Source: Bradyrhizobium sp. CB1015
GTDB taxonomy: Bacteria > Pseudomonadota > Alphaproteobacteria > Rhizobiales > Xanthobacteraceae
Length of the DNA: 64,000 nucleotides
Direction of reading: 5' to 3'
Assembly: GCF_025200925.1 (NCBI RefSeq)
Contig: NZ_CP104174.1
Coordinates: 1,984,001 to 2,048,000, forward strand
The notes under the pieces were generated by a model. The model saw only the letters and a list, made by a program, of their open reading frames with translations. It made no database searches and was not told the origin of the DNA. This document shows, piece by piece, positions 56,171 to 63,550 of the stretch; positions within the stretch are counted from its first letter, which is position 1, and every line of letters starts with the position of its first letter. The position numbers were made by a program, and so were the translations under genes.

Positions 56171-57136
56171 TCAATAGCCCCTTGCGCGGTCCACCACGTT
56201 CTCCAGCGCGCCGCCGGCCTCGAACCGCGCGATCTGCTCGGCGACATAGGCCGAGATCGCATCCGCGTCGGTGTCGGCGGCATTGTGCGGCGTCAACACC
56301 ACCTTGGGGTGGGTCCAGAACCGGCTGTCCTTCGGCTGCGGCTCCTGCACGAAGACGTCGAGCGAGGCCGCGCCCAGCGTGCCGTCGTCGAGGCAGGCGA
56401 GAATATCGGCCTCGTTCTGCAGGCCGCCGCGGCCGGCATTGATCAGCACCGGCGCGCCGAGCGGGCTGGTGCGATTGAGCTTTTTGAAGACGTCGCGGTT
56501 GAGGATGCCGTGCGTGTCTGATGTCAGCGGCAGCAGGCTGACCAGGATATCGGTCACGCGCAGGAAGGTGTCCATTCCGGCGGCGCCGTGGAAGCATTCG
56601 ACGCCGTCGATCGTGCGCAGGCTGCGGCTCCAGCCGGCGACGTGGAAGCCGAGCCGCCGCAGCACGCCGGCCGCATCGGCTCCCAACGTGCCCAATCCCA
56701 TGACGCCGACCGTGATCGCGCTCGCCGGCCACTGATATCTGGGCTCCCAGCGCTTCTCGCGCTGCGATTGCCGCAGGTAAAGCTCCTGGCGATGGTGCAT
56801 CAGAACGTGCAGCACGACATATTCGGTCATGCGGTTGGTGAGATCGGGCACGGCGACGCGGACCAGCGGCACCTCGGGCAGGCTCTTGTCGGCCATCAGC
56901 GCGTCGACGCCCGCCCCAAGGTTGAAGATCGCCCGCAGATTTGGGAACGCCCCGAGATCGCCCGGCACCGGCTTCCACACCGCCGCATAATGCACCTCCG
57001 CCGGATCGAGCCCGGCGTCCGGCAGCAGCACCACGCGGCGGTCCCCGCAGACCGCGTCGAAGCGGGCCTTCCAGCGCTCCGGCAGCCAGTTCTGCTGCGT
57101 GCTGTTGATCAGGACGGCCAGTGTGCCCATGGTCAT
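56171..57136 (-). CDS. ghrA: Glyoxylate/hydroxypyruvate reductase A
   Basis: This 321-residue D-2-hydroxyacid dehydrogenase reduces glyoxylate and hydroxypyruvate with NADPH. The nucleotide motif is ITVGVMGLGTLGADAAGVL, and SRSLRTIDGV follows the second strand, with the Arg and Ser fitting NADPH. VLINAGRGGLQNEADI, LDVFVQEPQP and LTPHNAADTDADA carry the catalytic Arg, Glu and His regions. Two starts are possible, MTMGTLAVL or MGTLAVL six nt later. Just after its stop, in the same frame, lies the tail of an old chemoreceptor. Confidence 0.9.
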   Translation of the reverse strand: MTMGTLAVLINSTQQNWLPERWKARFDAVCGDRRVVLLPDAGLDPAEVHYAAVWKPVPGDLGAFPNLRAIFNLGAGVDALMADKSLPEVPLVRVAVPDLTNRMTEYVVLHVLMHHRQELYLRQSQREKRWEPRYQWPASAITVGVMGLGTLGADAAGVLRRLGFHVAGWSRSLRTIDGVECFHGAAGMDTFLRVTDILVSLLPLTSDTHGILNRDVFKKLNRTSPLGAPVLINAGRGGLQNEADILACLDDGTLGAASLDVFVQEPQPKDSRFWTHPKVVLTPHNAADTDADAISAYVAEQIARFEAGGALENVVDRARGY

Positions 57137-57221: not shown

Positions 57222-57248
57222 TGTCGGCGCGGGGCATATTGGCCCGTC
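57222..57248 (+). promoter_or_regulatory. Candidate ECF42 promoter 1
   Basis: TGTCGG, 17 nt, CGTC. The spacing and both boxes are identical in two other promoters of this neighbourhood. It lies 28 nt before the start of the DGPF-sigma operon, leaving a short leader with GAGGGAAG as ribosome site. ECF42 sigma factors are known to use TGTCGA-like -35 and CG-rich -10 boxes. Confidence 0.7.
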
Positions 57249-57276
57249 TTTAAGACAGACGAGGGAAGTGCCGCCC

Positions 57277-57645
57277 ATGCTTTACGCCATTCTTTGCTAC
57301 CACGATGAGGATTTCGTCGGCTCCTGGAGCAAGGACCAGGACGAGGCCGTGATGAAGAAGCTCGCCGTGGTGCAGGACAGGCTCACCAAGCAAGGCCGGC
57401 TCGGGCCGGTGGCGCGGCTGTTGCCGACGACCGCGGCGGCGACCCTGCGCAAGGAGGATCCGCCGCTGGTGCTCGACGGCCCCTATGCCGAGACCAAGGA
57501 GCAGCTGCTCGGCTTCTACATCGTGGATTGCAAGAACCTCGACGACGCGCTCGACGTCGCACGCGAGCTGGGTGCTGCCAATCCCGGCGGCGCCTACGAG
57601 GTGCGTCCCGTCGGCGTGTTCCGGCCCGGAGGAGACCTGACGTGA
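57277..57645 (+). CDS. DGPF/YCII-domain protein
   Basis: This 122-residue ferredoxin-like fold protein (MLYAILCYHDEDFVGSW) carries the name-giving region as LDGPYAETKEQLLGFY, with Tyr in place of Phe. Such proteins are the standard genomic partners of ECF42 sigma factors; their biochemical role is unknown, though YciI relatives suggest small-molecule chemistry. Its stop overlaps the sigma gene start by 4 nt (GTGA). Confidence 0.88.
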   Translation: MLYAILCYHDEDFVGSWSKDQDEAVMKKLAVVQDRLTKQGRLGPVARLLPTTAAATLRKEDPPLVLDGPYAETKEQLLGFYIVDCKNLDDALDVARELGAANPGGAYEVRPVGVFRPGGDLT

Positions 57646-58928
57646 GCGAGGCCGATACCGCCTGGATCGAGACTGCGCTGACCTCGGCGCGCCCCCAGGC
57701 GGTCGGCGCGCTGCTGCGCTATTTCCGCGATCTCGACACGGCCGAGGAGGCGTTTCAGAACGCGTCCTTGCGCGCGCTCAAGACCTGGCCGCAGAACGGA
57801 CCGCCGCGCGATCCAGCTGCCTGGCTGATCATGGTCGGCCGCAACGTTGCGATCGACGAGGTACGACGCGCGCGCAGGCAACAGCCGCTGCCCGAGGACG
57901 ACCAGGCGATCTCCGATCTCGACGATGCCGAAGGCGCGCTCGCCGAGCGGCTCGACGGCTCGCACTATCGCGACGACATCTTGCGGCTGATGTTCATCTG
58001 CTGCCATCCAGCGCTGCCGGCGACGCAGCAGATCGCGCTGGCGCTGCGCATCGTCTCGGGCCTCACGGTGAAGCAGATTGCACGCGCGTTCCTGGTTTCG
58101 GAAGCGGCGATGGAGCAGCGCATCACGCGCGCCAAGGCAAAGGTCGCCGAGGCCGGCACGCCGTTCGAGGCGCCGGGCGCGGTCGAGCGCTCCGAACGGC
58201 TCGCCGGCGTCGCGGCGATGATCTACCTGATCTTCAACGAAGGCTATTCGGCCAGCGGCGACACCGCCGAAATCAGGAAGCCGCTGTGCGAGGAGGCGAT
58301 CCGGCTGGCGCGGCTGCTGCTGCGGCTGTTTCCGAGCGAGCCGGAGATCATGGGCCTGACCGCGCTGATCCTGTTGCAGCACGCGCGCAGCGCCGCGCGC
58401 TTTGCCGCGGACGGATCGCTGATCCTGCTGGACGATCAGGATCGTTCCTTGTGGAACGGCACCATGATTGCGGAGGGCCTCGCGCTGATCGACAAGGCGA
58501 TGCGCCACCGCCGCAGCGGGCCCTACCAGATCCAGGCGGCGATCGCCGCGCTGCATGCGCGCGCAGCGACGCCCGAGGAGACCGACTGGACGGAGATCGA
58601 CCTGCTCTACGGCGCGCTCGAAATGGTGCAGCCGTCGCCGGTGGTGACGCTCAACCGGGCGGTTGCGGTCTCCAAGGTGCGCGGGCCGCAGGCCGCGCTC
58701 GATCTGATCGAGCCGCTGGCGCCGAAGCTCGCCAATTATTTCCATTTCTATGGCGTACGCGGCGCGTTCCTGATGCAACTCGGCCGCAACGACGACGCCC
58801 GTATCGCCTTCGACCGCGCCATCGCGCTCGCCAACACCTCGGCCGAAGCCGCCCACATCCGCATGCATCTCGATCGCCTGATCCGGGACAGCCAGCCCAA
58901 GGCAAAGGAAAGCGCCAAGGCGAAGTGA
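57642..58928 (+). CDS. ECF42-type RNA polymerase sigma factor with C-terminal extension
   Basis: This is a 428-residue sigma factor. Region 2 spans about residues 25-80 (RYFRDLDTAEEAFQNASLRA, WLIMVGRNVAIDEVRR) and region 4 about 122-168 (LPATQQIALALRIVSGLTVK, MEQRITRAKAK). The remaining 250 residues (LIFNEGYSASGD, IRLARLLLRLFPSEPE, NRAVAVSKVRGPQAALDL) form the helical, TPR-like extension that defines this group and stands in for an anti-sigma factor. No anti-sigma gene is nearby. The GTG start overlaps the DGPF gene. It likely drives its own promoter and two others nearby. Confidence 0.92.
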   Translation: MSEADTAWIETALTSARPQAVGALLRYFRDLDTAEEAFQNASLRALKTWPQNGPPRDPAAWLIMVGRNVAIDEVRRARRQQPLPEDDQAISDLDDAEGALAERLDGSHYRDDILRLMFICCHPALPATQQIALALRIVSGLTVKQIARAFLVSEAAMEQRITRAKAKVAEAGTPFEAPGAVERSERLAGVAAMIYLIFNEGYSASGDTAEIRKPLCEEAIRLARLLLRLFPSEPEIMGLTALILLQHARSAARFAADGSLILLDDQDRSLWNGTMIAEGLALIDKAMRHRRSGPYQIQAAIAALHARAATPEETDWTEIDLLYGALEMVQPSPVVTLNRAVAVSKVRGPQAALDLIEPLAPKLANYFHFYGVRGAFLMQLGRNDDARIAFDRAIALANTSAEAAHIRMHLDRLIRDSQPKAKESAKAK

Positions 58929-58937
58929 GGACTCGTC

Positions 58938-59038
58938 GTCATTCCGGGGCGATGCGAAGCATCGAACTCCGGTGCGCGCTTGCGCACCTGAGAATCTCGA
59001 GATTCCGGGTTCGGTCCTGCGGACCGCCCCGGAATGAC
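58938..59038. repeat. 101-bp palindromic element Z, copy 1
   Basis: The terminal inverted repeats are perfect 14-mers GTCATTCCGGGGCG and CGCCCCGGAATGAC. Inside are three small hairpins: GATGCGAAGCATC, GGTGCGCGCTTGCGCACC and GGTCCTGCGGACC. Another copy of the same length, in the opposite orientation, lies near 63.5 kb. It fills the spacer after the sigma gene. Confidence 0.8.
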
Positions 59039-59059
59039 GATCAAAAACATTCCGTATCT

Positions 59060-59086
59060 TGTCGGCCCCCGCCATCTCCGTTCGTC
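59060..59086 (+). promoter_or_regulatory. Candidate ECF42 promoter 2
   Basis: TGTCGG, 17 nt, CGTC: the same boxes and spacing as upstream of the DGPF-sigma operon. It stands 26 nt before the SRPBCC gene, giving a short leader with AGGGGAG-like ribosome site (CCAGGGGAGCC). Confidence 0.7.
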
Positions 59087-59112
59087 CTTAGCCCGTACCA
59101 GGGGAGCCATTC

Positions 59113-59652
59113 ATGCTGAAAGCCATTGCCGTCATCGCCATCGTTCTCGCCGTCGGCATTGCCGCGGTCCTCGTCTTTGCCCTGACCAAACCCGACACGT
59201 TCCGCGTCGAGCGCTCGCTCGCCGTGAAGGCGCCGGCCGCTGCGATCTATCCGCTGGTTGCCGATTTCCATCGCTGGACGGCCTGGTCGCCCTATGAGAC
59301 CCGCGACCCCGCCATGAGGCGGACGTTCGGCGGAACCGGGGCAGGCAAGGGCGCGACCTATGCCTGGGACGGCAACAACAATGTCGGCGCCGGCCACATG
59401 GAGATCCTGGAGGCGAACGGGCCCTCCAGGCTCCGCATCAAGCTGGATTTCGAGCGGCCGTTCGAAGGACACAACACCGCCGAGTTCACCTTTGTGCCGC
59501 AAGGCGATGCCACACTCGTCACATGGGCGATGTACGGTCCGGCCCCGTTCCTGTCCAAGGTCATGCAGGTGTTCATCAACATGGACAGCATGATCGGCAA
59601 GGATTTCGAGGCGGGCCTCGCCGGCCTGAAGAAGCTCACCGAGAAGCAATAA
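59113..59652 (+). CDS. SRPBCC family protein with N-terminal membrane anchor
   Basis: This is a 179-residue protein. One hydrophobic segment (AIAVIAIVLAVGIAAVLVFAL, residues 4-24) anchors or exports it. The rest is an SRPBCC (START-like) ligand-binding fold: AIYPLVADFHRWTAWSPYE, AGHMEILEANGPSRLRIKLD and the C-terminal helix MIGKDFEAGLAGLKKL. The ligand is unknown. It is followed 29 nt later by a VOC-fold gene; SRPBCC and VOC proteins are frequent members of DGPF/ECF42 neighbourhoods. Confidence 0.87.
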   Translation: MLKAIAVIAIVLAVGIAAVLVFALTKPDTFRVERSLAVKAPAAAIYPLVADFHRWTAWSPYETRDPAMRRTFGGTGAGKGATYAWDGNNNVGAGHMEILEANGPSRLRIKLDFERPFEGHNTAEFTFVPQGDATLVTWAMYGPAPFLSKVMQVFINMDSMIGKDFEAGLAGLKKLTEKQ

Positions 59653-59681
59653 GCGTCACTGCAACGAAGAGGAGAGAAACG

Positions 59682-60095
59682 ATGCTCAATCCCTATCTGT
59701 TCTACCAGGACAATTGCGAAGCGGCGTTCAACTATTACGCCAAGGTTCTCGGCGGCAAGATCGACGCAATGATGCGCGCATCGGATGCACCGCCGGAGAT
59801 GCCGGCTGTGCCCGGCCGCGAGAAGATGATCATGCATGCGCGCATGTCGCTCCCCGACGGCAGCGTGCTGATGGCTTCCGACGCGCCGGCCGAGCACTTT
59901 CACAAGCCGCAGGGCTTCTCGGTCTCGCTCACGGTCAAGGACCCCGCGGATGGCGAGCGCAAGTTCAACGCGCTCGCCGACGGCGGCAGCGTCACCATGC
60001 CTTTCAGCAAGACGTTCTGGGCCAAGGGCTTTGGCATGTGTGTCGACAAGTTCGGCATTCCCTGGATGGTGAATTGCCCGGCCGAAGGCATGTGA
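59682..60095 (+). CDS. VOC/PhnB-like glyoxalase-fold protein
   Basis: This 137-residue protein is of the PhnB/3-demethylubiquinone-methyltransferase-like VOC group. LNPYLFYQDNCEAAFNYYAK, MIMHARMSLPDGSVLMASDA and a C-terminal FGIPWMVNC are hallmarks. The usual metal ligands of glyoxalases are only partly evident, so catalytic activity is uncertain. GGAGAG precedes the ATG. It probably shares the SRPBCC transcript. Confidence 0.87.
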   Translation: MLNPYLFYQDNCEAAFNYYAKVLGGKIDAMMRASDAPPEMPAVPGREKMIMHARMSLPDGSVLMASDAPAEHFHKPQGFSVSLTVKDPADGERKFNALADGGSVTMPFSKTFWAKGFGMCVDKFGIPWMVNCPAEGM

Positions 60096-60126
60096 CGGGC
60101 GCGACCGCGATCCGTCGCGTTGCGAT

Positions 60127-60155
60127 CCCCTCTCTCCAATGCTGCGGGAGAGGGG
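60127..60155. terminator. Hairpin after VOC gene
   Basis: An 8-bp stem CCCCTCTC/GAGAGGGG with a 13-nt loop lies 31 nt after the VOC stop and before a convergent lipoprotein gene. There is no T-run; a terminator role is plausible only. Confidence 0.45.
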
Positions 60156-60199
60156 ACGTACGCTTCGTTACGTTACGCGCCGATCGGCCGTTTCTCCTC

Positions 60200-60550
60200 T
60201 CACCGGATTGATCCGGTGACGTCCTCGCGCGGGGGCGACGATTCCACGCAGCGAGGACAGATCACGAGCTTGGCGCCGAGCTGCCTGTCGTTCTCCGCCT
60301 GTATCTCGTCCTGGACCGCCCACCACGCCTCGGAATATGGGCGCAATGTGCCGAGCACTTTTTCCCGCTCCTGATTCGGATCACTTGCGGCCGGCGCGCC
60401 GGTCGTGACGCGCCGCTTGGCGACATGCGGACGGTTCGGATCCTTGCCGAGACCATCCCATGCGATGGCGCGGCGTTCCTGCGCAGGCGCCTCTGCGCAT
60501 CCGATTAGCGCTGTGCAAAAAGTAAGCACGATCAAGCCGTGTCGAATCAT
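60200..60550 (-). CDS. Small hypothetical lipoprotein
   Basis: This is a 116-residue protein of unknown function. The start MIRHGLIVLTFCTALIGCAE gives a lipoprotein signal, with LIGC as lipobox and the lipidated Cys near residue 18. The mature part is hydrophilic, with CPRC near the C-terminus (a C-x2-C pair) and a conserved-looking EREKVLGTLRPYSEAWWAVQ helix. It is probably anchored in an envelope membrane. An earlier in-frame Met exists but would spoil the signal peptide. Confidence 0.65.
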   Translation of the reverse strand: MIRHGLIVLTFCTALIGCAEAPAQERRAIAWDGLGKDPNRPHVAKRRVTTGAPAASDPNQEREKVLGTLRPYSEAWWAVQDEIQAENDRQLGAKLVICPRCVESSPPREDVTGSIR

Positions 60551-60946
60551 GCTGGGCTTTTGCCTCCATAAGCAGCGCGCAGAATCTGCGAAAGACACGC
60601 GCATCATCGGTTCAATGGAACTCAAGGCAAAACAAGCTTGCCGGCATGGCCGAATATGAGTCGTGCTTTCGCATCACTTTGCGGACGCAGTGAGGCCGCT
60701 TCATGAAGCGAGCTGCATCGCACAACAATTGGCGCAATATTGGGCTGTGATCTGCACGCCAGAATCGCTATTGGTGATTCATAAAAGCTACAAACTGGGA
60801 TGGACGTCACTTGCAAGGGGAGCGACCGATGGCGGCGGCGCTACAGATCAACTTTGCTCTTTGGGGAATGCTCATTTGCGCCAGCGCGAAGCTGGCGCCA
60901 GTGATCCAGACGCTCTTTTGAAAGCGGTTGGCGGCTGCCGGCTGTA
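60551..60946. other. Gene-free spacer with one hairpin
   Basis: About 400 bp between two minus-strand genes. I see no credible reading frame. The only clear feature is a perfect 8-bp stem GCGCCAGC/GCTGGCGC with a GCGAA loop (60878-60898), about 50 nt past the stop of the secreted-protein gene, possibly its transcript end. The promoter of the lipoprotein gene must lie toward the left end. Confidence 0.5.
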
Positions 60947-61384
60947 TCAGCGGCAACGCGGATAGATCGCGGCGAGATCGCGCCCCTTCAACAGCAGCAG
61001 CCGCGAGCTAAGACCGCCACGGCGGCTGATCCAGTCGCGCACCGGGCCGGGATAGGCGGCAAGCACCGCGACCGATGCTTCCGGCTCGGCATAGAAGCGC
61101 CCGCGCCGGTCCACCGATCGCGCGGCGTGGAAGCCGAGCACGGCGCGCTTGGTGACGCAGATGCGCTCGCCCGGCACGATGCTCAGCACCAGCGTGCAGG
61201 CGGACAGGCAGGGGCCGTCGATCACCACGCGCTCGCCGCTCTCGCGCACCTTTTCGAACAGATCGAGGAACGGCCCGACCTGTCCGCCCGGGGACTGGAT
61301 GATGCGGATCTCGGCCGCCGCGGGCGTGACGGCGAGCAGCGCTGATGCAAACATCAAGGCTTTGAGGAAGGTGATGCGTTGCAT
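60947..61384 (-). CDS. Secreted ClpP/crotonase-like hypothetical protein
   Basis: This 145-residue protein has a signal peptide (FLKALMFASALLAVTPAAAE). The mature part reads IIQSPGGQVGPFLDLFEKVR, VVIDGPCLSACTLVLS and RAVLGFHAARS, resembling the small periplasmic ClpP-like proteins of alphaproteobacteria, where a Ser near SPGG or SACT could be a nucleophile. Proteolytic activity has not been shown for the group as far as I know. The start was chosen at the Met beginning the signal peptide. Confidence 0.7.
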   Translation of the reverse strand: MQRITFLKALMFASALLAVTPAAAEIRIIQSPGGQVGPFLDLFEKVRESGERVVIDGPCLSACTLVLSIVPGERICVTKRAVLGFHAARSVDRRGRFYAEPEASVAVLAAYPGPVRDWISRRGGLSSRLLLLKGRDLAAIYPRCR

Positions 61385-61412
61385 GGCACTCTCCACCAAC
61401 TTAGGTTTCGTC

Positions 61413-61463
61413 GGGTGGGTTAGCCTACGGCTGCGCGAAGCGCAGTCCGTTGCGTAACCCACC
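61413..61463. repeat. Hairpin repeat GGTGGGTTA...TAACCCACC
   Basis: The arms GGTGGGTTA and TAACCCACC enclose CTGCGCGAAGCGCAG, itself a hairpin. I know this GGGTGGGTTAGC/GCGTAACCCACC unit as frequent in Bradyrhizobium spacers. Related bits (TCACCCACCCTACAAGG) continue toward the SDR stop, filling the spacer. Confidence 0.65.
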
Positions 61464-61547
61464 ATCTTTCTCGCCGCGTGAAAGGAGGGGGCTACGCCCG
61501 GCGGCCGCGCTTCGCGCTGCCGCAGTGCTCACCCACCCTACAAGGTT

Positions 61548-62336
61548 CTACCCGTTGCGCCGTTGTCCGCGCAGCGTCGGCAGGCCGATACCCGCCGCAT
61601 CGAAGCCGCCGTCCACGGCCAAAATTTGGCCGGTGATGTAGCTCGCGCTGCCCGAGCACAGGAAATAGATCGCCTCCGCGAGCTCCTCTTCCAGGCCGTA
61701 GCGGTTGAGCGGGATGGCGTCGTGATAGTCGGCGCGGATCTCCTTGGTGTGCACCTGCTTGGCCATGGCTGTGTCGACCGGTCCCGGCGCGACCGCGTTG
61801 ACACGGATGTTGAGGGAGGCGAGCTCGACCGCGAGCTGCTTGGTGAGGTGCGCAAGGCCTGCCTTGCTGGTGCCGTAGGCCGAGCGCAGCGTCGAGGCGC
61901 GCACAGCCGAGATCGAGGTGATGTTGACGATGGCGCCGCCATTGCCGTCGCGCATCAAGGGCACGGCTGCCTTGGTGCAGAGAAACGGGCCGGTGAGGTT
62001 GACCTCGAGCACGCGGCGCCAGTCGGCCTCCGACGTCTCCATCAGCGGCGCGAACACTGCGATGCCGGCATTGTTGACCAGCGCATCCAACCGGCCGAAC
62101 CGCCGCTCGATCCCCCTCATCGCATCGCTGACTGCGGCCGCGTCCGAAACGTCGCAGGTCAGCGCCAGCGTCGCCTCGCTCTGGCCGATCTCGGCAACCG
62201 TGCGGCCGAGCAGCTCGCCCTCGATGTCGAGCAGCGCCACGCGCCAGCCTTCTGCGAGGAACTTCTTCGCGGTCGCAAGCCCGATGCCGCGGGCGGCTCC
62301 GGTGACGAGAGCGACTTTTTGCGTGGCTTGCGGCAT
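61548..62336 (-). CDS. Short-chain dehydrogenase/reductase
   Basis: This is a 262-residue classical SDR: VALVTGAARGIGLATAKKFL (8-27), acidic LLDIEGE after strand 2 (suggesting NAD), NNAGIAVFAPLMETSEADW, catalytic Ser in ITSISAVRAS and YGTSKAGLAHL (Y-x3-K), and VNAVAPGPVDTAMA. It resembles 3-ketoacyl/glucose dehydrogenase-type SDRs; the substrate is unknown. It runs opposite to the DGPF genes and has no ECF42-type promoter before it. Confidence 0.88.
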   Translation of the reverse strand: MPQATQKVALVTGAARGIGLATAKKFLAEGWRVALLDIEGELLGRTVAEIGQSEATLALTCDVSDAAAVSDAMRGIERRFGRLDALVNNAGIAVFAPLMETSEADWRRVLEVNLTGPFLCTKAAVPLMRDGNGGAIVNITSISAVRASTLRSAYGTSKAGLAHLTKQLAVELASLNIRVNAVAPGPVDTAMAKQVHTKEIRADYHDAIPLNRYGLEEELAEAIYFLCSGSASYITGQILAVDGGFDAAGIGLPTLRGQRRNG

Positions 62337-62503
62337 TGGCTGATCTGTCCTGTGTTCGGGAGGGGCGTGCGAGAGCGCCGGCCCCTTTTACTGCCCTTTC
62401 GTTTCGGCGTGAAAGGCCTCGCGCCAGGCCGATGGACTCCGGTGCGGCCCAGAATGCGCCAGCCGCGGCTGCATTGCGGCCTCCAAAATAATCCCTGTCC
62501 CGC

Positions 62504-62530
62504 TGTCGGCCCGGCAGAAGGCCGTTCGTC
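62504..62530 (+). promoter_or_regulatory. Candidate ECF42 promoter 3
   Basis: TGTCGG, 17 nt, CGTC, identical to the other two. It lies 76 nt before the second DGPF gene, so the leader is longer than at the other promoters. The spacer between the divergent SDR gene and this promoter shows nothing else recognisable. Confidence 0.68.
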
Positions 62531-62606: not shown

Positions 62607-63011
62607 ATGCGATTCATGATGCTGATGATCCCGCTCGGCTACGAGAACGCGCCGCCGGAGCTTCAACTCGATCCCGAGCGCGTTGCCGCGATGATGCGCT
62701 ACAACGAGGCGCTGAAGGACGCGGGCGTGCTGATCACGCTCGATGGGCTGCACCCACCATCGACCGGGGCACGGGTCTCGTTTGCGACCGGCCGGCCCGT
62801 CGTCACCGACGGGCCCTTCGCGGAGGCCAAGGAAGTCCTGGGCGGCTATTGGATGATCGAGGTCGCCTCGCGCGCCGAGGCGATCGCCTGGGCCAAGAAA
62901 TGTCCCGCTTCAGCCAACGAGATCATCGAGGTCCGCCAAGTGCAGGAGATGGCCGATTACTCGCCCGAAGTGCAGGAGATCGTCGCCGGGTTTGACGATC
63001 TGAAGACGTAG
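62607..63011 (+). CDS. DGPF/YCII-domain protein
   Basis: This 134-residue protein (MRFMMLMIPLGYENAP) carries the exact DGPF motif in VVTDGPFAEAKEVLGGYWMI at about residues 67-86. It belongs to the group typically controlled by ECF42 sigma factors. A second YCII-type gene follows 48 nt later. The function is unknown. Confidence 0.88.
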   Translation: MRFMMLMIPLGYENAPPELQLDPERVAAMMRYNEALKDAGVLITLDGLHPPSTGARVSFATGRPVVTDGPFAEAKEVLGGYWMIEVASRAEAIAWAKKCPASANEIIEVRQVQEMADYSPEVQEIVAGFDDLKT

Positions 63012-63059: not shown

Positions 63060-63425
63060 ATGAGCACCGAACACACATTCCTCGCCATCTATCTCGGCAG
63101 CACGAGCGGATCCAAAATGGCGGCGTGGCGCGCGCTGCCCGAGGCCGAACGGAAGGCGAAGGAGCAGGAGGGCATGGCGGCCTGGCACGGCTGGGTCGAG
63201 AAGCACAAAGCCGTGATCGTCGAGATGGGCGGCCCGCTCGGCAAGACCCGCAGGATCGACCGGAGCGGCATCACCGAGGTCAGCAACGCGCTGACCGGTT
63301 TCACCGTGGTGCGCGCCGCCTCGCAGGAGGACGCTGCCAAGCTGTTCGAGAACCATCCGCATTTTGCGATTTTCCCGGGCGAGGCCATCGAGGTCATGCC
63401 CGTGCTGCCGATTCCGCAGATGTAG
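63060..63425 (+). CDS. YCII-related protein
   Basis: This is a 121-residue protein with the YCII-like ferredoxin fold: TFLAIYLGSTSGSKMAAW at the N-terminus, ALTGFTVVRAASQEDAAKLF and NHPHFAIFPGEAIEVMPVLP at the end. It lacks the DGPF motif itself. The start follows AGGAGAAG. It probably shares the transcript of the preceding DGPF gene. Confidence 0.85.
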   Translation: MSTEHTFLAIYLGSTSGSKMAAWRALPEAERKAKEQEGMAAWHGWVEKHKAVIVEMGGPLGKTRRIDRSGITEVSNALTGFTVVRAASQEDAAKLFENHPHFAIFPGEAIEVMPVLPIPQM

Positions 63426-63449: not shown

Positions 63450-63550
63450 GTCATTCCGGGGCGATGCGAAGCATCGAACCCGGAATCTCGAGATTTTCAG
63501 ATGCGCAAGCGCGCACCATAGTTCGGCTCTTTGAGCCGCCCCGGAATGAC
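63450..63550. repeat. 101-bp palindromic element Z, copy 2
   Basis: Same 14-bp ends and same length as copy 1. The interior reads in the opposite direction, and the outer small hairpins differ in sequence but keep pairing (GATGCGAAGCATC; GGCTCTTTGAGCC). It lies between the YCII gene and the TetR gene. Confidence 0.8.

Follow-up and report, generated by a model that had tools for sequence, protein, structure and literature searches.

What reads the three identical TGTCGG-N17-CGTC elements in this stretch of the Bradyrhizobium sp. CB1015 genome, and do the genes under their control end at its borders? The elements lie in 64,000 nt of contig NZ_CP104174.1 (positions 1,984,001 to 2,048,000; hereafter the window), each ahead of a gene or gene pair, and one of these operons encodes a sigma factor resembling the extracytoplasmic function (ECF) group ECF42. 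A first-pass annotation, made from the sequence alone, had taken them for the local regulon of that sigma factor. We consider it very probable that this protein (57642-58928) is the counterpart of Sinorhizobium meliloti RpoE10, and that it reads TGTCGG-N17-CGTCYT at a nine-unit detoxification and end-joining regulon. The window features are as follows.

57222..57248, plus strand: P1, putative ECF42-type promoter, TGTCGG-N17-CGTC(TT), ahead of the YCII-sigma operon
57277..57645, plus strand: YCII-family protein with DGPY instead of DGPF, opening the sigma operon (PF03795, 71.5 bits; sequence relative of the solved chain 1s7i_A, PA1349)
57642..58928, plus strand: ECF42-type sigma factor, 428 residues, overlapping the YCII gene by 4 nt (PF04542, PF08281 and PF20239 over cut-off, TPR_2 below)
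59060..59086, plus strand: P2, putative ECF42-type promoter, TGTCGG-N17-CGTC(CT), ahead of SRPBCC-VOC
59113..59652, plus strand: SRPBCC (Polyketide_cyc2) protein with a hydrophobic N-terminus (PF10604, 54.1 bits)
59682..60095, plus strand: VOC/glyoxalase-fold protein, YjdN-like (PF06983, PF00903; NF007537 at 83.8 bits, under its cut-off of 122)
62504..62530, plus strand: P3, putative ECF42-type promoter, TGTCGG-N17-CGTC(TT), ahead of the YCII pair
62607..63011, plus strand: YCII (DGPF) protein (PF03795, 82.3 bits)
63060..63425, plus strand: 121-residue protein with no Pfam or NCBIfam match, which its spacing makes the likely second member of the P3 operon

Window promoters and their conservation

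The exact motif occurs three times in the whole window, against a mean of 0.28 in dinucleotide shuffles, and none of 100 shuffles reached three. As the first-pass annotation had stated, all copies are exact, lie on the plus strand and sit 26-76 nt upstream of a start codon (28, 26 and 76 nt ahead of 57277, 59113 and 62607, respectively). Its gene labels held in part: a YCII gene does precede the sigma gene, but the residues that gave the operon its DGPF name read DGPY, and the supposed DGPF-YCII pair opens with a genuine YCII (DGPF) protein but has a second member whose YCII label is unsupported by any family match. P1, P2 and P3 alike continue as CGTCYT. When one mismatch is permitted, this extended motif still matches only P1-P3 in the window, a count of three that 7 of 100 shuffles reach. 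No sigma-70-type promoters were found between window positions 57000 and 63600 (shuffle mean 0.7).

Across the genome (8.41 Mb, one contig) the bare motif is found at chance level: it matches exactly 28 times, and its reversed pattern 26 times. This is the random rate that the first-pass annotation had named as a refutation, although for ten fixed bases it is a weak test. The form TGTCGN-N17-CGTCYT gave 15 matches against 4 for its reversed control. Ten of the 28 bare matches stand in promoter position, nine ahead of intact genes and one ahead of a frame-disrupted Ku copy; the CGTCYT continuation is present in 13 of the 28, including all ten of these, and three further TGTCGG...CGTCYT sites are followed by no recognized gene. 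Because the bare motif lacks genome-wide enrichment, conservation was used to decide. It was examined for the matches in promoter position.

For the window genes, we inspected 150 nt upstream of each gene at the best 80 of 309 loci related to the sigma gene, which are 85-98% identical to it (79 carry a Bradyrhizobium title and one a Frankia title). The exact motif precedes the YCII-sigma operon at 80 of 80 loci, SRPBCC-VOC at 71 of 77 (five of the others are TGTCGA variants and one has an 18-nt spacer; the gene is missing at three loci), and the YCII pair at 54 of 74 (gene missing at six). The neighboring control genes lack it, with 0/80 for a 2-hydroxyacid dehydrogenase and 0/76 for a short-chain dehydrogenase/reductase (SDR) gene, which is missing at four loci. 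Pairwise identity of the spacers among exact sites is 0.62 for SRPBCC and 0.59 for the YCII pair, and spans 0.54-0.81 over these three groups and the six described below; the flanks of the nine groups span 0.30-0.84 upstream and 0.52-0.86 downstream. We conclude that P1-P3 are genuine signals preserved in evolution, and that a single stress-type sigma factor most probably recognizes them; the conserved P2 agrees with the earlier inclusion of the SRPBCC and VOC genes among its targets. The record titled Frankia sp. RB7 (L106) carries a sigma gene that shares 94% identity with the query and is probably mislabelled or contaminated.

The sigma factor and its candidate regulon

The sigma factor possesses sigma-2 (PF04542) and sigma-4 (PF08281) domains over cut-off and the long C-terminal extension already attributed to it, in which PF20239 (DUF6596) matches residues 186-287 at 118.9 bits; this family is our proxy for group ECF42, used in place of the ECF classification hidden Markov models. 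The tetratricopeptide repeat (TPR) part is weaker, with TPR_2 at residues 372-398 scoring 20.7 bits, under its cut-off of 27. The gene directly upstream is of the YCII/DGPF type (PF03795), and no anti-sigma factor was recognized among the nine other window proteins scanned, of which six matched families and three (60200, 60947 and 63060) matched none. An ECF41 identity was rejected, there being no SnoaL match at E 0.001 and the window sites reading TGTCGG, not TGTCAC.

The layout seen in the window, like two of the three promoters, is already known from S. meliloti. There, RpoE10 of group ECF42 is encoded downstream of a YCII gene, and its targets are a hydrophobic-ligand protein and glyoxalase-like proteins; the loci are SMc01151-rpoE10, SMc01149-SMc01148 and SMb20475-SMb20474 (PMC6180224). 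As in the window, every RpoE10-linked promoter listed in Table 1 of that paper, three in all, fits TGTCGG-N17-CGTC, and no anti-sigma factor is identifiable; P2 has its counterpart both in that table and in strain Ak57. Where the first-pass annotation gave TGTCGA-like -35 boxes for ECF42, these S. meliloti promoters have TGTCGG. Overexpression of RpoE10 raised both target operons, and the SMc01149 start on which both mapping methods agree is the ninth base past CGTC (PMC6180224). In the plasmid collection, 100 records encode a protein related to the sigma factor, and nine of these were also examined. Exact motifs stand ahead of the YCII-sigma operon and again just past the sigma gene in S. meliloti Ak57, Sinorhizobium K101, R. 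leguminosarum and two Phyllobacterium strains, and ahead of the operon only in Shinella. The Ak57 record, titled plasmid pSymB (L436), has dnaA and rpsT near its rpoE10-type sigma gene and so is probably chromosomal.

The source genome encodes two PF20239 sigma factors. The second is 47% identical to the window sigma and has its own YCII gene (G000:C1:2856800-2858530), ahead of which TGTCGT-N17-CGAC can be read by eye. The same sequence precedes this paralog in 19 of 19 readable loci from other genomes of the genus (20 fetched, one cut). Since these promoters read TGTCGT-N17-CGAC and those of the window TGTCGG-N17-CGTC, the two paralogs appear to be insulated from one another, and their two promoter codes within one genome offer a natural experiment on sigma specificity. 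Conserved boxes, an exact fit to the RpoE10 promoters and a different promoter at the second paralog together support a model in which one ECF42 sigma factor would read P1, P2 and P3. Its ortholog is present in 59 of 60 genomes of the genus, near full length in 56 (one with an in-frame stop), partial in two and split between frames in one. The split copy (G009:C1:6104636-6105921, in a single-contig genome) is either a sequencing error or a pseudogene.

This evidence supports the proposal of one sigma factor with three promoters, but the term local is too restrictive, since a conserved promoter also precedes six transcription units outside the window. They encode an orphan YCII protein, an AHSA1 protein, a VOC pair, a glutathione S-transferase (GST), a major facilitator superfamily (MFS) transporter and an accessory Ku (families YCII, AHSA1, VOC, GST_N, MFS_1 and, for Ku, TIGR02772 at 303 bits). 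For each, 60 genomes of the genus were searched and 200 nt upstream of the best 30 loci inspected, the source genome's own locus among them. The exact motif was found at 30 of 30 loci for the VOC pair, 29 for AHSA1, 28 each for Ku and the orphan YCII, 25 for MFS and 24 for GST. The six GST misses share at most 73% identity, and 24 of the 26 loci with at least 60% identity are exact; 18 further MFS loci comprise 14 exact, two loose and two without the motif. YT follows CGTC at 93-100% of the exact sites in the six groups. When all nine groups are pooled, the exact motif lies within 150 nt of 369 of the 407 orthologs examined (at least 60% identity and enough upstream sequence; six are the source genome's query loci), against 0/407 for each of five shuffled-box controls. 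The bases after TGTCGG are conserved and group-specific, being AAC in Ku and mostly so in GST, and mostly AT or GT in AHSA1 and the VOC pair; perhaps they tune promoter strength.

Our analysis suggests the following scheme. The Bradyrhizobium RpoE10 counterpart, bound to core RNA polymerase, would initiate at promoters comprising TGTCGG (-35), a 17-nt spacer and CGTCYT (-10), with start sites about 9 nt past CGTC if the one S. meliloti start is a guide. Its window targets would be the operon that encodes it together with YCII, the SRPBCC-VOC operon and the YCII pair; elsewhere it would drive the orphan YCII gene, the AHSA1/SRPBCC gene, the VOC pair, the GST, the MFS transporter and the accessory Ku. 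The sigma operon may be autoregulated, as the first-pass annotation held, which would give positive feedback. As no recognized anti-sigma gene adjoins, sigma activity is probably under the control of the C-terminal DUF6596/TPR extension, which would sense a protein partner; such sensing has been proposed for ECF42 in a review, which names no known partner for most of the extension (PMC8999054). The regulon may act to detoxify and expel some reactive or foreign compound (YCII, VOC, SRPBCC, GST, MFS) in parallel with DNA-end repair. The kind of regulon is known, but S. meliloti RpoE10 has three promoters listed and Bradyrhizobium nine conserved units, adding the GST, MFS, AHSA1, VOC-pair, further YCII and accessory Ku genes. 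The literature searched, which leaves out most subscription papers, yielded neither P3 nor the six far units; as far as it goes, both the extent of the regulon and its gene content are new, the accessory Ku most of all. Its genus-wide GST, VOC, MFS and Ku promoters provide concrete readouts with which to find the inducer.

Several observations weigh against this scheme. Genome-wide, the bare motif is no more frequent than expected by chance. Of the YCII-pair orthologs, 20 of 74 lack the exact motif, three of them having a loose one and 17 not even that, and a loose motif occurs in 4 of 76 SDR control regions. The footprint at the YCII-sigma operon is weak on its own because the upstream flank (0.84) is as conserved as the spacer (0.81), and the downstream flank of the VOC pair is conserved too (0.86). 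In S. meliloti, RpoE10 overexpression did not raise the sigma's own operon, where the predicted motif ahead of the YCII gene overlaps the mapped start (PMC6180224). Among the plasmid-collection records, no motif precedes the YCII-sigma operon in Mesorhizobium INR15, and the variants in Labrenzia and Roseibium read TGTCGC. Finally, presence and absence of the sigma gene as a test of dependence comes down to one genome in 60, G041, which has only 47% matches to the sigma factor and retains the exact motif before MFS; this exception is unexplained, or an effect of an assembly that is 95% complete.

The G041 site is what one would expect if the promoters were genuine and another ECF sigma factor, either the second ECF42 paralog or one of the ECF41 type, read some or all of them, and the S. 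meliloti ECF41 box is indeed similar (TGTCAC-N17-CGTC; PMC6180224, Table 1). This alternative is unlikely given that the second paralog's own promoters differ in both boxes at every readable locus, and that RpoE10 raises genes behind exactly TGTCGG-N17-CGTC in S. meliloti (PMC6180224).

Accessory Ku and the general stress promoter

The promoter of the accessory Ku may record a change of sigma factor. The source genome carries several Ku genes. Within the accessory clade, six of six further paralogs from other genomes have the exact motif. The source genome's two other intact accessory copies come close to it, since the first base differs in one and the spacer of the other is 18 nt long, and the frame-disrupted copy (G000:C1:7342000-7343076) retains an exact ECF42-type promoter. 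In the other Ku clade there is no such motif at 11 of 11 loci, nor at two more.

The consensus of EcfG, the general stress sigma factor (EcfG/RpoE2), is GGAAC-N16-17-CGTT, with boxes that differ from those of the ECF42 type. A Ku match passed the set limit in 42 of 150 order-level genomes, 38 of which do not belong to the genus; the 26 loci examined from outside it are about 41-50% identical and not necessarily orthologs. TGTCGG-N17-CGTC occurs at none of the 26, and the EcfG pattern at 14 (15 with a looser form). That pattern is found in none of the 30 in-genus accessory Ku upstream regions, on which ground EcfG control of the Bradyrhizobium gene was rejected. All 28 exact in-genus sites read TGTCGGAAC, and thus contain GGAAC, which we take to be the EcfG -35 core. 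Three permuted controls gave at most one match in any set.

Given EcfG-like sites at 14 of 26 loci outside the genus and ECF42-type sites containing GGAAC at 28 of 30 within it, the simplest reading is a promoter switch in which GGAAC was kept. We lean toward the view that the Bradyrhizobium accessory Ku moved from EcfG to the ECF42 sigma factor, with a TGTC+GGAAC -35 element, and became co-induced with the detoxification regulon, the second Ku clade keeping promoters without the motif. The same GGAAC and the EcfG-like loci outside the genus could also mean that the Ku sites are modified EcfG promoters and not ECF42 promoters at all; we judge this improbable, as the full EcfG pattern is absent in the genus and TGTCGG and CGTC are kept there at 17-nt spacing in all but two of the 30 regions. 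It is harder still to credit that the window promoters are real and the far sites (Ku, GST, MFS, AHSA1, VOC pair, orphan YCII) unrelated look-alikes, for although 28 genome matches against 26 reversed ones mean that single matches count for little, the exact motif recurs at 24-30 of the best 30 loci in each far group and is followed by YT at nearly all of them.

If the transfer of Ku to the ECF42 sigma factor is correct, non-homologous end-joining repair would be co-induced with a YCII, VOC, SRPBCC, GST and MFS detoxification regulon, which suggests a signal that threatens both small-molecule metabolism and DNA. The Ku promoters resemble one sigma regulon handing over a gene to another. No report of an ECF42-Ku link was found among the titles and opening lines of abstracts in the literature searched, whose coverage is as given above.

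Other ECF42 systems and intergenic repeats

Among the main-text passages listed for the start-site paper on B. japonicum USDA 110 (PMC4842269), none contains TGTCGG or CGTC, a term search of a paper on B. japonicum ECF factors (PMC3420878) did not return ECF42, and PMC3616915 mentions RpoE10 a single time, as background. The Streptomyces venezuelae proteins Sven_0747, Sven_7131 and Sven_4377 are actinobacterial ECF42 factors that share a C-terminal extension of roughly 200 residues containing TPRs (PMC8999054). Pseudomonas putida ECF-10 belongs to the same group, has a similar gene context and shows an oxidative-stress and antibiotic phenotype (PMC8999054, PMC6180224).

Two similar palindrome-rich stretches (cattccggggcgatgcgaagcatcgaa...gccccggaatgac) lie at window positions 58936-59038 and 63450-63550. 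Both are intergenic and by eye resemble repetitive extragenic palindromes, and the first stops about 20 nt upstream of P2.

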